Shown: positions 3,084 to 14,106 of the stretch, one piece after another
How positions within the stretch are numbered: the first letter of the stretch is position 1
How the letters are laid out: the number at the start of each line of letters is the position of its first letter
Source of the DNA: a virus
Length of the DNA: 22,263 nt
Virus record (IMG/VR): IMGVR_UViG_3300025086_000283
Span: 1-22,263 of that record
Reading direction: 5' to 3' (one strand)
The notes under the pieces: model-generated
What the model was told of the DNA's origin: nothing
Seen by the model: only the letters and a program-made list of their open reading frames with translations
Database searches by the model: none
Translations under genes and position numbers: made by a program

Positions 3084-4803
3084 ACCAATTCTCTCCTATT
3101 TTATATTCTCCTGTTAGAGGACAACGCATGTTAAAGTGTTGGCTTGCTTTCTTAATAGCTTCAACTCCTAGTTGTCCTACAAATTCAGCTTGAGATTCTT
3201 TTACTTGTATCTGCCACTCGTCATGAATGTTAGCTACAAACTTAGCATCAAGCGTATTTAAGTTTATAAGTTCTTGTAATATACACATGGCTTTCTTCAT
3301 AACTATAGCACCACCACCTTGTAATAAAGTATTAAGTGCAGCGTGTTGGCTACGTACATATATCTTACGACCATCTAATCCTTTAAGGAATCCTCGTTCA
3401 GATGCTTTTTGTACTTTATCTTTTAAAGTTCTAAGTGACGGTAAGTTTTTGAAAAAAGTTTGTTTAAGTTCTTTACCTTTTTTTAATCCACCACCTGCAA
3501 CTGAACCTATTTTAGCATCACCTGCTCCATAAACTAATGCATATATAAATGTCTTAGCTTGGTCTCTTGTTTTAAGACCTGCAAGATTTTGATTAGTAGT
3601 ATGTATATCACCATTGATAACTTCTTCAATATAATCAGAATCATCCATGTAATGTGCTAACATTCTAAGTTCTAGTCCACTAGCATCTACACCTACAAGT
3701 TTATATCCATCAGGTATAGTCCAACATGAACGACACTCTTTACCATATGGACTACCTGCATTAGGTACTTGTGCCATGTTAGGATTTCTATGTGTCATTC
3801 TCCCTGTAATAGTACCATTAGGTATTACGCTACCATGAACTCTATCATCTTTGAGTTCATCTATCCAAGATGTAACTTGTGCTATACGTTTTTGATATAG
3901 TAAAAAATCTGCAATTAACTTAGCTTCTCTTATATGTTTAATTTTTTTGAGAGTGCCTTCATCTACAATAGGTTGACCTGTTGGTGTAAATCTTTCAGGC
4001 TTCCAACCAAAGTCAATAAGATATTCTCCTATTTGTTTACGACTACCAAGATTAAACTCTTGTAAAGATTGTCGCATGAAGGGGTCTGTGTTGTTAGTTG
4101 TTATACATCTATTGTATTCATCATCAGTAAGACCACGCTTAGATAGTTCACCATCTTTCTTTATGTAAGGTGTAACCAATTTATCATCAACCCACTTAGG
4201 TTTAAATGTTCTATGCACTTCATCTTCTACATCAAGTTGTTTAGCTTTTAATTCAGCAAGAAGTTCCATAGCTTGTTGAGTGTTAAAAAAGAAACCAGTC
4301 TTTTCTTGCTCTTTCATTATCTTAGCTACACAATGTTCTAAATCTATACATTCTTTACTAAATATTTTACCTTCATTAATAAGATAATTATACACAGCTT
4401 CATTTAGTTTAACATCTTGAATACAATACTCTAACATTTCAGGAGTATAAGAATCAAAGTCTTTAGGTTGTTCTTGTTTCAAACAACCAACACGCCAACC
4501 CCAAGCTTTTAAACTGTGTCCGTTCTCACGAACAGGATTAAATAGTCTTGACATAACAAGTGTATCTTCTATCTTACAAGCAAACTTAGCACCGTAAAGT
4601 TTTTCTAGTACAGGTATATCATAACCTATAATGTTATGACCTATAAGTGTTCCAGCTTCTTGTAAAAATTTAATACCTTCTTTTATTTGTGTGTTATCAA
4701 ATGTATGTGAGACACCATTTAATTCTTTAGCTACAATACACCATACATTATTAGGATTTAATCCATCAGCTTCTATGTCAAATATTATTTTAGAATTGTT
4801 CAT
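3070..4803 (-). CDS. T7-like family A DNA polymerase with 3'-5' exonuclease
   Basis: Replicates the phage genome. From the ATG at 4803 the protein has 577 aa (T7 gp5 has 704). The exonuclease domain shows FDIEADGL (D9, E11), IGHNIIGYDIPVL (D62) and YCIQDVKLNEAVY (D130). The polymerase domain shows motif A VGVDASGLELR (D373), motif B RDQAKTFIYALVYGAG (R413, K417, Y421) and motif C IHDEWQI (H527, D528, E529). Residues about 200-255 occupy the position of T7's thioredoxin-binding insertion but are shorter. Y421 is the equivalent of E. coli F762 and T7 Y526. An upstream in-frame ATG would lie deep inside the primase-helicase gene, so the 4803 start (14-nt overlap) is preferred. Confidence 0.95.
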   Translation of the reverse strand: MNNSKIIFDIEADGLNPNNVWCIVAKELNGVSHTFDNTQIKEGIKFLQEAGTLIGHNIIGYDIPVLEKLYGAKFACKIEDTLVMSRLFNPVRENGHSLKAWGWRVGCLKQEQPKDFDSYTPEMLEYCIQDVKLNEAVYNYLINEGKIFSKECIDLEHCVAKIMKEQEKTGFFFNTQQAMELLAELKAKQLDVEDEVHRTFKPKWVDDKLVTPYIKKDGELSKRGLTDDEYNRCITTNNTDPFMRQSLQEFNLGSRKQIGEYLIDFGWKPERFTPTGQPIVDEGTLKKIKHIREAKLIADFLLYQKRIAQVTSWIDELKDDRVHGSVIPNGTITGRMTHRNPNMAQVPNAGSPYGKECRSCWTIPDGYKLVGVDASGLELRMLAHYMDDSDYIEEVINGDIHTTNQNLAGLKTRDQAKTFIYALVYGAGDAKIGSVAGGGLKKGKELKQTFFKNLPSLRTLKDKVQKASERGFLKGLDGRKIYVRSQHAALNTLLQGGGAIVMKKAMCILQELINLNTLDAKFVANIHDEWQIQVKESQAEFVGQLGVEAIKKASQHFNMRCPLTGEYKIGENWYETH

Positions 4804-9146: not shown

Positions 9147-9851
9147 CTATACATGTATTACAAAGCCTGACATATCCTGTCTTGCTTTACCTTTTGCTTT
9201 AAGACCAACCACTACATTGGGTTTGTCCATAAATCTTATATCACTTTCGTCTCCATTGATTACCTCTCTACCTTTGTAATAGATAGGCATAGCACCATTG
9301 AATACTACTGCTATGTTATACTTTATAGTATCAAAGTATTGTGCATACTTACTATTAGCTTCTGAATAACTCCAAGTCAAATGATAGTTTTTAATATCAC
9401 TTACTTTTCTTGTGGGTATTTTAGTGTAGTCATAAAACTGTATATGTGAAAACATCTCAAAGATATTCTTGCCATCAACTTTAATGTGTTCCCATTGTAT
9501 ATCACTAGTACCATTTAATCTCAGGCAAGGAAGCTTATCTTTTTTCTTACAGTAGTTATCAAACTTAGTTATGTCTGATATCAGGTAAGACATGAAGGTA
9601 TCTCTATCTTCTAAATACAATTTAGTCTTACGCTTTCTAGCTTCTTGTATGACATTAGTGGTTTCACCCTTCTTTATAATGCCACCCCTACCTGCTGTAT
9701 TAAGACAGGCTTCCTTGCACCCAGCAATGTCTTGATAAGGACATATTTTAGTGTTGATTGGACTCATATGTAATATAGCACTTAGATAATTGCTATACAC
9801 TTTATTACTTTTTTGTATTTTTGGATTGCTAAATGTTAATAGTTTATACAT
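9147..9851 (-). CDS. Gp88-like phage protein with cysteine cluster (234 aa)
   Basis: The N-terminal block SPINTKICPYQDIAGCKEAC followed by LNTAGRGG (C37, C45, C49) is characteristic of a phage family I associate with Gp88 ('gene product 88') and related DUFs. The later segments LRLNGTSDIQWE (about 110-121), FYDYTKIP (139-146) and HLTWSYSE (157-164) look like strands of a barrel. The clustered cysteines suggest metal or Fe-S binding, comparable in spirit to Gp37/Gp68 or radical-SAM-like proteins, but they do not match the classic CX3CX2C motif. No function is proven. AGAGG precedes the ATG. This is the largest gene of the unknown cluster. Confidence 0.7.
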   Translation of the reverse strand: MYKLLTFSNPKIQKSNKVYSNYLSAILHMSPINTKICPYQDIAGCKEACLNTAGRGGIIKKGETTNVIQEARKRKTKLYLEDRDTFMSYLISDITKFDNYCKKKDKLPCLRLNGTSDIQWEHIKVDGKNIFEMFSHIQFYDYTKIPTRKVSDIKNYHLTWSYSEANSKYAQYFDTIKYNIAVVFNGAMPIYYKGREVINGDESDIRFMDKPNVVVGLKAKGKARQDMSGFVIHV

Positions 9852-11944: not shown

Positions 11945-11986
11945 ATTATATCTCCTAATATAAAATTTAATCATTCAGTTCTGTTT

Positions 11987-12049
11987 CCGAATGCTTTTAC
12001 ATGATTGCACAAAAACATTCGAAAGTCAAGCACATTTATAACTATTTTA
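11987..12049 (-). promoter_or_regulatory. 63-bp repeated upstream element, copy A
   Basis: Imperfect direct repeat of 12432-12494, placed 43 nt before the start of the 42-aa gene. On the minus strand it reads GTGCTTGACTTTCGAATG, a variable middle, then TGTAAAAGCATTCGG. TTGACT looks like a -35 box; a 17-nt spacer gives only AATCAT as -10, while the conserved TAAAAG lies 24 nt away. CGAATG and CATTCG form an inverted pair 22 nt apart, suggesting an operator. It is probably a promoter with a regulator site. Confidence 0.6.
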
Positions 12050-12384: not shown

Positions 12385-12431
12385 AATTATATCTCCAAAT
12401 ATAAAATTAAAGTATTTGCAATCGACTTGTG

Positions 12432-12494
12432 CCGAATGCTTTTACACTTTGCCACAACGAAATTCGAAAGTCAAGCACATTTATAACTATTTTA
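12432..12494 (-). promoter_or_regulatory. 63-bp repeated upstream element, copy B
   Basis: Same length and layout as 11987-12049. The left 14 nt (CCGAATGCTTTTAC, plus strand) and the right part (ATTCGAAAGTCAAGCACATT and on to TATTTTA) are identical; the middle differs. It sits 48 nt before the start of the 94-aa gene. This copy has no good -10 at 17 nt from TTGACT, so the conserved flanks rather than the standard -10 box are probably what is recognised. Confidence 0.6.
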
Positions 12495-12670
12495 TATAAA
12501 AAATTAATAAAAGTATTATTTATATTTTATTACTTGACATAATATAAAATATATAGTATAATTTATTATAAATAAAATCGCCCTCAACTACCTGCCCCAG
12601 CCCCCCCAATTATAATTATTTTATATAATATAACTAATATAATTAATATAGTTTATATTTATTTTAAGGG
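12495..12670. other. Extremely AT-rich tract with a C-run (candidate origin or RNA domain)
   Basis: Almost pure A/T on both sides of a C-rich island (12580-12607), with many TATA-like steps. It has no coding potential. It contains the plus-strand promoter at 12534-12562 and the 5' part of the plus-strand RNA. Easily melted DNA between the two transcription arms fits a replication origin, but no repeat family typical of an origin is evident. Confidence 0.3.
12534..12562 (+). promoter_or_regulatory. Perfect consensus promoter reading into a non-coding RNA
   Basis: TTGACA (12534-12539), a 17-nt spacer, TATAAT (12557-12562): an exact sigma70 consensus. No plus-strand gene follows before 14113, and minus-strand genes begin at 12854. 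The predicted start near 12569 leads into the structured RNA described next. Confidence 0.75.
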
Positions 12671-12805
12671 GGCATGACATTTAAAGCCCACTCTAACATA
12701 ATAGGAAGCACAGCGTAGCTTCCGATACAAGAGTTACGACAGCTATTTCAAAGCCTGTATAATATCTTACAGGCTCTTGAAATAATTACTAAAGGCTACG
12801 AAACA
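12569..12805 (+). ncRNA. Structured non-coding RNA, plus-strand member of a two-copy family
   Basis: Follows a perfect promoter and has no reading frame with a ribosome site. It contains a C-run (12601-12607) able to pair with GGGGGC (12668-12673), the block GCCCACTCTAACATA (12686-12700), and CGTAGC (12714-12719) pairing with GCTACG (12795-12800) inside CTAAAGGCTACGAAA (12789-12803). A 15-bp hairpin lies between (12744-12751/12777-12784 plus 12753-12759/12768-12774). An alternative GGAAGC/GCTTCC stem overlaps one arm. The same blocks occur in the same order on the minus strand at 13753-14028. The 3' end is uncertain; the terminator at 12806-12843 lies just beyond. Function unknown. Confidence 0.6.
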
Positions 12806-12843
12806 TAAAAAAAATCCCAGAGTCTGTTAAAACTCTAGGATTT
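12806..12843 (-). terminator. Intrinsic terminator of the 13379-12854 operon
   Basis: On the minus strand AAATCC-T-AGAGT, an 8-9-nt loop, then ACTCT-G-GGATTT form an 11-bp stem with one mismatch, followed at once by a run of eight T. It lies about 10 nt after the stop codon of the 114-aa gene: a textbook intrinsic terminator. On the plus strand it has no T-run, though the stem could still mark the end of the opposing RNA. Confidence 0.85.
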
Positions 12844-12853
12844 AAAGATATTA

Positions 12854-13198
12854 TTAAGCTGATTTTACGTAATCATTAACTGATTGTACAAGCTTTTTAG
12901 TAAAAGGTGTATCAAACTTATTATTTACTTTAGCTTCATGAATCAGCTTGCTAATATCTTGGCTAGTCATCTTATTTTCAGGAATAAATGAATTCCAAAG
13001 ATGAACTTGAAATTTACCAAATCTACCTGATTTACCTTTGAAATTTACAAAGTCATTGTCTTTCTTAAGTTTATCATGTTTCTTTAATATATTCTTTTTT
13101 ATCGTATCCTGATATAGATATACCAGATATTTTACTTGAGCTTCAGTAGCACTTTTATGTTTACTGTTAACTATTCCTTCATGTGTGTTATTTTCCAT
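12854..13198 (-). CDS. Hypothetical basic protein (114 aa)
   Basis: Not recognised with confidence. Lysine-rich; residues 16-40 (KSATEAQVKYLVYLYQDTIK) and the later MTSQDISKLIHEAK (about 77-90) resemble the 'A(S/T)..Q..YL...' and 'S..E.S.LI' helices seen in several small phage proteins, so a helical DNA- or protein-binding unit is possible. AAAGGAG precedes the ATG, it overlaps the 63-aa gene by 11 nt and ends just before a strong terminator. The operon lies between the two homologous RNAs. Confidence 0.7.
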   Translation of the reverse strand: MENNTHEGIVNSKHKSATEAQVKYLVYLYQDTIKKNILKKHDKLKKDNDFVNFKGKSGRFGKFQVHLWNSFIPENKMTSQDISKLIHEAKVNNKFDTPFTKKLVQSVNDYVKSA

Positions 13199-13379
13199 AT
13201 TTAACTCCTTTGGTTTCTATGAGATTAATTAAAGTATCAGTAACAACACTATTATCTGATACCACTTGCAAAGTCTGATTAGATAATCCAGTGATAATCT
13301 GCTCAGCGTCTTTGATTGAATAACATTCTATAGACCTTTCAAGTTCAGGCATTTGAATGTGTATAACTAATTTATGCAT
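13188..13379 (-). CDS. Hypothetical protein (63 aa)
   Basis: Unrecognised. The pattern MHKLVIHIQMPELERSIECY followed by SIKDAEQIITGL and VVTDTLINLIETKG suggests beta-alpha elements. TTAGGAG lies upstream of the ATG at 13379. It is the first gene of a two-gene operon with its own promoter (13410-13438). Confidence 0.65.
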   Translation of the reverse strand: MHKLVIHIQMPELERSIECYSIKDAEQIITGLSNQTLQVVSDNSVVTDTLINLIETKGVKYGK

Positions 13380-13409
13380 GTTTTTAGACTCCTAAATAAA
13401 TATAACATA

Positions 13410-13438
13410 AGTATATCATAAATTATATTTGGTAACAA
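13410..13438 (-). promoter_or_regulatory. Promoter of the two-gene operon
   Basis: Minus strand: TTGTTA (13438-13433), a 17-nt spacer, TATACT (13415-13410), 30 nt upstream of the ATG at 13379. The -35 is weaker than the other promoters here (4 of 6), the -10 good (5 of 6). It probably serves only the 63-aa and 114-aa genes. Confidence 0.55.
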
Positions 13439-13474
13439 ATAAACTTAAACATCCACCGCACATTGTTAACTAGA

Positions 13475-13539
13475 GAAGTTTCATAGCTAATATGTCATAG
13501 GTGGAGACTTGTACTACCTTGACAGATTAGCGAAACTTC
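13475..13539 (-). ncRNA. Long 23-bp nested hairpin
   Basis: Arms in order: GAAGTTTC/GAAACTTC, GCTAAT/ATTAGC, TGTCA/TGACA, AGGT/ACCT, separated by bulges of 1-3 nt. On the minus strand the loop carries TCCACC, complementary to GGTGGA at about 13452-13457, so a pseudoknot is possible. It lies within the non-coding stretch downstream of the minus-strand RNA and just upstream of the promoter of the two-gene operon. It may be a 3' domain of that RNA or an independent element. The strand is inferred from the strong upstream promoter. Confidence 0.5.
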
Positions 13540-13645
13540 GTAATCTTCATTATGTTATATTCTATTTAGGAGTTTGCATAAATTTGTGCACATTGAAATC
13601 TTGAAAGGTCTCCTTTAGAATCTCATCAAAGACTTTAAAGTTTCC

Positions 13646-13728
13646 CTGTCATATGTAATGGAAAATAACATGAAGGAATACCTAAGAATACGATAAGCTA
13701 GGTATCCATTGAAACTATTATATGACAG
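13646..13728 (-). ncRNA. Second long nested hairpin
   Basis: CTGTCATAT (13646-13654) pairs with ATATGACAG (13720-13728); inside it AATGG (13657-13661) pairs with CCATT (13706-13710), which directly abuts TAGGTAT (13699-13705) pairing with ATACCTA (13678-13684). In total 21 bp in three helices. A 72-codon minus-strand frame crosses it but lacks a ribosome site. It probably belongs to the transcript started at 14035-14063. Confidence 0.5.
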
Positions 13729-13752
13729 ACAATGACTTTCAAAGGCATTAAA

Positions 13753-14028
13753 TTTCATAGCCTTTAGAGTGCTATCGAAGTAGAGATGGGATATGTTAGA
13801 GTGGGCGAGGCAGGAGACCATGCCCCCTACCATACATATCTATAGCATGATTATACATTTTATAAGATAATAGTTATTAACCAGAACTAGTTAACGCCCC
13901 GACACTAAAACTCTAAAGTCTTTATAGTATTAAAGGGTATTTATTTCAGACACAACTACTCCCCTCTTATTAGAGAGCTAATAGTTTTGTTTAGGATTTT
14001 GGGGGGCTATGTTGACCCGGGAGGGCAC
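13753..14028 (-). ncRNA. Structured non-coding RNA, minus-strand member of a two-copy family
   Basis: Begins a few bases after a perfect promoter (14035-14063). On the minus strand it shows GCCCTC and TCAAC near the 5' end, a C-run (plus 14001-14006) able to pair with GGGGGC (plus 13822-13827), GGGGGCATG (13819-13827), GCCCACTCTAACATA (13792-13806) and CTAAAGGCTATGAAA (13753-13767). GCTAT (13757-13761) can pair with ATAGC (13771-13775). The plus-strand RNA at 12569-12805 has the same blocks in order, with GTAGC/GCTAC in that last helix: an A-U to G-C change that keeps pairing. A TATTAG/CTAATA hairpin lies in the 5' domain. The 3' end is unclear and may extend to about 13440. Function unknown. 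Confidence 0.6.
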
Positions 14029-14077: not shown

Positions 14078-14106
14078 TTGACAATTTTAAAATAGAGGTG
14101 TATACT
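14078..14106 (+). promoter_or_regulatory. Promoter of the packaging and head operon
   Basis: TTGACA (14078-14083), a 17-nt spacer, TATACT (14101-14106). The transcription start expected about 7 nt beyond falls on the A of the ATG at 14113. No other promoter of this strength was seen upstream of the plus-strand genes, so it may drive all of them. Confidence 0.7.

Follow-up and report, generated by a model that had tools for sequence, protein, structure and literature searches.

Why does this phage genome carry the same set of sequence motifs twice, on opposite strands, with two small genes in between? A sequence-only reading of the locus had answered that these are two paralogous structured RNAs. 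The window, which is the whole stretch of DNA that we analyzed, is an IMG/VR record of 22,263 bases. Its terL product is nearest to those of the pelagiphages HTVC115P/103P/104P (~66% identity) and next to those of HMO-2011, CRP, and other marine podophages. Replication genes run leftward on the minus strand and structural genes run rightward on the plus strand. The motifs lie at the junction of the two gene sets, where the GC skew also turns (13-14 kb). A divergent promoter for the terS/structural operon, matching sigma70 at 11 of 12 positions, is found at 14078-14106 on the plus strand.

One hairpin instead of two RNAs

The motifs occur in the order that had been described, GGGGGCATG, GCCCACTCTAACATA, and CTAAAGGCTA(C/T)GAAA, at 12668, 12686, and 12789 on the plus strand and at 13827, 13806, and 13767 on the minus strand. 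The set has no further occurrence in the window. Each copy had also been placed behind a perfect sigma70 promoter, and both promoters do match at 12 of 12 positions (TTGACA-17-TATAAT at 12534-12562 on the plus strand, leading into the hairpin's left arm, and 14063-14035 on the minus strand). However, identical motifs that face each other from opposite strands form an inverted repeat. Therefore, the copies are not homologous RNAs but the two arms of one hairpin, and their likeness is intramolecular complementarity.

The hairpin is a single giant imperfect inverted repeat of ~1.2 kb (12668-13827) with two small genes inside. Arm 1 (12668-13410) is the complement of ORF2 (12854-13198, minus strand, 114 amino acids) and ORF1 (13188-13379, minus strand, 63 amino acids). 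An apical region with predicted local structure (13411-13549) separates it from arm 2 (13550-13827), which is the complement of the leader of the minus transcript and is compressed relative to arm 1. This leader is free of ORFs and belongs to the same transcript that encodes ORF1 and ORF2. From 13755 to 13540 it matches the complement of ORF2 and ORF1 piecewise, with many deletions on the leader side.

RNAfold joined 12668-13410 to 13550-13827 on the plus strand by 19 nested arm-to-arm helices (178 bp), from the outermost, GGGGGCATG (12668-12676 with 13819-13827), to the innermost, AATATAACATAA (13399-13410 with 13550-13561). The left base fits a motif of the whole family, GGNRTGGTC, and the right base reads GGGGGCATGGTCTCCTGCC on the minus strand (13809-13827), of which GGTCTCCTGCC is conserved across the family. 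Within the minimum-free-energy (MFE) fold, the 15-mer that the sequence-only reading had singled out became a 14-bp helix, GCCCACTCTAACAT (12686-12699 with 13793-13806), and its "extra arm" became a 16-bp side arm (12744-12784). Further in are a 10-bp helix, CTAAAGGCTA (12789-12798 with 13758-13767), the helices TATTCCTTCATGT / TATTTTCCAT (13172-13198 with 13658-13680), and an apical run of helices (13332-13410 with 13550-13611) that blastn also detected (71% identity, E 1.5e-5). Pairing reaches beyond the ORFs, down to the base of the stem.

The plus strand of the repeat folds at -345.8 kcal/mol, versus -236.5 kcal/mol for dinucleotide shuffles (z -12.9; minus strand, z -9.9). Against mononucleotide shuffles its z score is -11.3; by the same measure, eight control segments of equal length from the window gave +0.4 to -8.8, with energies of -170 to -270 kcal/mol. 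The score of one arm against the other is 78, versus 43 +/- 7 after shuffling. About half of the pairs formed by the window's own arms are long range, and these arms have no strand bias.

It had been proposed that the shared blocks contain no translatable gene. This held, in that neither is a noteworthy ORF in the window, and a 72-amino-acid minus-strand frame in the region (13615-13833) is not conserved. We rejected GGGGGCATG as a Shine-Dalgarno sequence with the start of a peptide because its reading frame is not conserved, and the palindrome GTTAACTAG as a repeated operator because it has two sites only in the window, which is the chance level.

The minus-strand promoter is conserved in relatives, as is the sequence of the first ~240 nt of the transcript. 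A conserved 5' segment (13828-14028, minus strand; GTGCCCTCCCGGGTCAAC, GTTAACTAG/CTGGTTAAT, and CTATAGATAT) lies outside the hairpin, and an intrinsic terminator is predicted for the ORF1-ORF2 transcript at 12812-12843 on the minus strand. The core of the leader (128 nt; RNAalifold on 49 sequences, A1) had no covarying structure when aligned alone, with three consensus pairs and no compensatory ones; it is not a conserved structured RNA by itself. Covariation had been suggested as the check on the two RNAs, and it was found from arm to arm (see below) and not within the leader core. The perfect plus-strand promoter had a similarly mixed outcome, because it is present but specific to the window: no plus-strand sigma70 promoter is conserved in relatives, most of which score no better than shuffles at that place. 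Motifs common to both copies and two perfect promoters in the window were the case for a pair of paralogous small RNAs. With similarity that runs on through both genes as an inverted repeat, an unconserved plus promoter, and a leader core that lacks its own covarying structure, this explanation is very improbable for the window, and as a description of the family it is already refuted.

Related phages and the region left of the hairpin

Searches with terL and the leader returned well over 100 related contigs, which we compared using custom scripts for energies, alignments, and pair counts. The expectation of a non-coding feature conserved among related phages was borne out. The hairpin is present in HMO-2011-type phages, with arms that pair over ~600 to 700 nt in 28 of 44 non-redundant loci and 79 contigs above a strict arm-score cut; the representatives share ancestry, and these counts are not numbers of independent events. 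It is ~1.1 to 1.4 kb long across the family, and its base motif (GGNRTGGTC / GACCAYNCC) is conserved. In most genomes, phage-specific sequence 3' of the conserved ~240 nt matches the genome's own ORF2-ORF1 region inversely. The best arm match came from the same locus in 36 of the 44 representatives (diagonal mean, 81 versus 24.7; permutation, 0/10000).

Two types of locus were distinguished. In type 1 (ORF2 family A2) the match spans the full length of the arms, as in L027 (520 identities over 716 columns). The window represents the other type (ORF2 family A3), in which arm 2 is shorter and compressed. The MFE of type-1 repeats from eight loci was about twice that of dinucleotide shuffles (z -18 to -74). 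Over the 28 loci, ~85% of pairs are arm to arm and the plus strand is the more stable (-0.427 versus -0.366 kcal/mol per nt for the minus strand). In this context, the exact 15-mer GCCCACTCTAACATA is limited to this phage and the near-identical contig L008; at the same position, relatives have another sequence in common. It was rejected as a family marker because its other matches in an IMG/VR search lie in unrelated sequence from which the element is absent.

The cultured phage HTVC115P retains the promoter and a portion of the leader but has no hairpin (220.7 versus shuffles up to 194). Therefore, the hairpin is not essential to the lineage. We found no isolate that carries the element, and all of its loci are uncultivated metagenomic contigs. 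An assembly artifact is a very unlikely source of these inverted repeats because diverged arms with compensatory changes recur in dozens of independent contigs.

ORF2 had no match in Pfam or PHROG, no fold match in PDB or BFVD, and no relative in phage isolates or genome_contigs; sequence and fold searches assigned neither ORF1 nor ORF2 to a recognizable family or fold. The ORF1-ORF2 module (12854-13379 and its equivalents) occurs in two or more distinct versions, each a different protein family, at an unchanged position. Arm 2 necessarily changes along with this module, so the two are swapped together. In the leader core of L081 and L091, the GTAAACTAG...CTGGTTAAC inverted repeat reads as its own reverse complement, which would look like a flip of the segment.

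The place of the supposed left-hand RNA is, in relatives, a region that resembles a replication origin. The gap left of the hairpin in many of them contains clustered perfect TTATCCACA DnaA boxes, all on the plus strand, with paired CCCTCAAC repeats ~30 bp apart and AT-rich DNA. Examples are the gap left of ORF2 in L027 (1847-2370) and in L051, where exact TTATCCACA clusters stand beside CCCTCAAC pairs. Judging from these sequences, the DnaA-box clusters suggest that such lytic-type marine phages may use host DnaA. The window's gap has no DnaA boxes. It retains a C-rich iteron-like block, GCCCTCAACTACCTGCCCCAGCCCCCCC (12580-12607, plus strand), which matches the CCCTCAAC repeats of relatives, and an AT-rich stretch resembling a DNA unwinding element between this block and the base of the hairpin (12608-12667).

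Selection on plus-strand pairing

We compared the arms in 34 pairs of close relatives. There were 292 compensatory double changes, versus ~65 expected if the arms evolved independently (the sum of per-pair estimates). Therefore, the compensatory pairing that had been described is real, although it joins the arms. These changes are scattered, and they are most common at third codon positions (86, versus 42 and 29 at the others), whereas changes in arm 2 alone are distributed without regard to codon phase (105/104/93). At 32 of 239 compensatory sites, a mismatch or bulge common to the two genomes lies within 5 nt on either side; at 85 of the 239, such flanking holds within 12 nt. Long conversion tracts would have erased such flanking mismatches, so they do not explain the compensatory sites. 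An RNAalifold alignment of 11 relatives gave a plus-strand score of -183.8 and a minus-strand score of -120.2. For the plus strand, the consensus comprised 193 long-range pairs, and 59 of these had double-sided changes (shuffles, 32.4 +/- 3.3). When partners were slid by one or two columns in this alignment, the paired fraction dropped from 94% to 40-49%.

The two strands were not treated alike. Single changes in the 34 pairs produced a plus-strand G.U 301 times and a minus-strand G.U 51 times. Changes that broke a Watson-Crick pair, counted in both arms, gave 280 plus-strand G.U (A>G 198, C>U 82) and 43 plus-strand A.C (G>A 22, U>C 21); other pair-breaking changes included 16 C>G and a single G>C. 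Among these recent changes, the ratio of G.A to C.U was only 86:67, against 280:43 for G.U to A.C. In the non-coding arm 2 alone, A>G plus C>U numbered 174 and U>C plus G>A numbered 27. In 25 of 28 loci, most mismatches over the whole repeat placed G or U opposite G or U on the plus strand; two loci were ties, and one showed the reverse. The asymmetry was weak or absent in L027, L043, L045, L049, L050, and L101, where bulges dominate. We found no matching mutational bias in minority transitions, which numbered 122 versus 109 in the whole repeat and 24 versus 15 outside it, with per-base rates nearly equal. The compensatory excess, together with a G.U bias that mutations outside the repeat do not mirror, indicates that base pairing on the plus strand is under selection. 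The simplest reading is that pairing of the minus mRNA is tolerated or weakened and pairing of the plus strand is maintained.

What the pairing may do

The explanation that we favor, tentatively and at somewhat short of an even chance, is that plus-strand pairing is maintained as a rod RNA that acts in trans. From the anatomy, conservation, compensation, and strand bias described above, we infer an RNA instead of single-stranded DNA (ssDNA), its transcription, and its action in trans. The plus transcript would begin in the gap on the origin side (at the 12534-12562 promoter in the window) and fold into a body resembling double-stranded RNA (dsRNA). Arm 2, which is non-coding, is held complementary to arm 1 by compensatory mutation. 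The body would act through its double-strandedness and length and not its sequence, since pairing persists through sequence turnover and reaches past the ORFs to the base. It might be a ligand or decoy of a factor that recognizes dsRNA, such as a host factor of the RNase III type or the ORF2 protein, acting in the early-to-late or origin region. Several findings count against a rod RNA. Unlike the minus transcript, with its conserved promoter and terminator, the plus transcript lacks a conserved promoter. In addition, asymmetry is weak or absent in several loci, the window's arms are without bias, and HTVC115P is hairpin free.

Pairing could also be functionless. Gene conversion or template switching would then keep the arms alike, and selection would do no more than weaken the hairpin in the translated minus mRNA. 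The mismatches present are precisely the ones that disrupt pairing of the minus strand, and perfect runs of at least 12 are scarcer than in shuffles (39 versus 61.5 and 72 versus 91), a scarcity that would also be in keeping with avoidance of RNase III or of inter-arm recombination. However, many compensatory sites lie between persistent mismatches or bulges within 5 to 12 nt, compensatory changes have a third-codon bias, and plus-only tolerance extends to the non-coding arm. Moreover, selection only to break the minus hairpin leaves unexplained why complementarity persists. We consider this explanation improbable, and one in which plus transcripts are antisense to ORF1-ORF2 hardly less so. 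Arm 2 of such a transcript would fold back on arm 1, preventing or regulating silencing of the early mRNA. Complementarity to ORF1-ORF2 is certain, with arm 1 wholly antisense to both genes, and a plus promoter is found in the window only. The weakening of the minus mRNA hairpin by A.C, C.C, and A.A mismatches while the plus hairpin is kept would fit self-locking. However, the arms still pair beyond the minus terminator, down to the stem base, a stretch that offers no mRNA as a target for silencing. Plain loss of antisense transcription would also be easier.

A hairpin of ssDNA is the strongest of these competitors, although still unlikely. The plus strand would be the lagging-strand template of a rightward fork from the adjacent origin and would fold when exposed; its role, if so, would just as doubtfully be control of fork direction, priming, or origin firing. 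The repeat abuts the gap that in relatives has TTATCCACA boxes, CCCTCAAC pairs, and AT-rich DNA, the GC skew turns at 13-14 kb, and no plus promoter is conserved. The order of mismatches over the whole repeat, in which G.G, G.T, and G.A are tolerated and C.C is avoided, also fits the stability of mismatches in DNA. However, the skew turn also tracks divergent transcription, the window has no DnaA boxes at its gap, and long hairpins on a lagging-strand template are normally harmful. Recent changes prefer G.U far above G.A or U.U, which is typical of RNA. On balance, our judgment favors RNA over ssDNA by roughly two to one.

The rod RNA that we favor resembles hepatitis delta virus (HDV) and Obelisk rods, which also are ~1 to 1.7 kb long with an ORF in one arm, a non-coding complementary other arm, and two polarities that fold unequally well. 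The predicted fold here is likewise rod-like with an ORF in one arm. However, the phage hairpin has a fixed locus in DNA phage contigs and is not an RNA-only replicon, and HDV and many viroid-like RNAs self-cleave, whereas the hairpin has no Rfam ribozyme. Therefore, membership in this group fails on the ribozyme and on being DNA borne. Obelisks have been reported to be widespread in the ocean (PMC11922315). It is doubtful, about as much as the antisense explanation, that the phage encodes an HDV/Obelisk-like rod RNA body of >1 kb, with the plus polarity kept folded by selection and the minus polarity serving as mRNA for two phage proteins. Just as doubtfully, such a body would be a rod RNA carried in DNA, either domesticated or ancestral, or else it would found a new class of dsRNA effectors in phages.

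Other known systems are less similar. GOLLD, ROOL, and OLE are also large RNA structures of several hundred to >1,000 nt at phage-linked loci, but the phage element is a single near-continuous rod, is not multidomain, and has no Rfam match. Its genes lie opposite one arm, and its arms vary fully between phages. ColE1 RNA I/RNA II and hok/sok-type systems share antisense transcription beside an origin or small gene, but here the arms are in one molecule, pair over 600 to 700 nt, and have whole coding sequences inside. The put RNAs of HK022, which sit as two copies next to early promoters, recall the two related RNAs of the sequence-only reading. They are independent hairpins of ~70 nt, whereas the phage "copies" are arms of one hairpin.

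That reading had recognized no known RNA class, and Rfam 15 (GOLLD, ROOL, 6S, HDV-like, and other ribozymes) agreed, with no hit at gathering score in the window or eight relatives. Hits at E<=5 were just chance-level snR33, NsiR1, mir-1892, and ZNRD1-AS1. We rejected an HDV-like ribozyme, suggested by GGCAUGGUC, because Rfam did not support it. A literature search for phage hairpin or rod RNAs found nothing relevant, and the words promoter, non-coding, and intergenic are absent from the HMO-2011/pelagiphage papers PMC9038755 and PMC12753301. We found no Rfam family, isolate genome, or paper that describes the element, and its design is not known in DNA phages.

Long, near-continuous self-complementarity that spans entire genes is something that bacteria and phages normally avoid. 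An abundant marine lineage keeps it by compensation, with a strand signature that tells which polarity matters. The plus RNA, if it exists, represents a phage RNA of a new kind and offers a natural model of coding and structural constraints in one molecule; should the active form be ssDNA, the hairpin is an origin element of a new kind. In both cases, phage origins become testably linked to dsRNA or hairpin DNA and to two protein families with no known relatives.

Three other features of the window were noted. An ARAGORN tRNA-Tyr call (4598-4670, plus strand), antisense within the DNA polymerase gene, is probably a false positive. The minus-strand gene at 9147-9851 encodes a PHROG_1617 protein of unassigned function with conserved Cys motifs, a relative of which (gp03) appears to adjoin the promoter region in HTVC115P. 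Finally, the regions upstream of two different minus-strand genes (11985-12048 and 12431-12494) are near-identical over ~60 to 120 bp (79% over 124 bp), and by sequence this pair is a putative repeated promoter/leader cassette.
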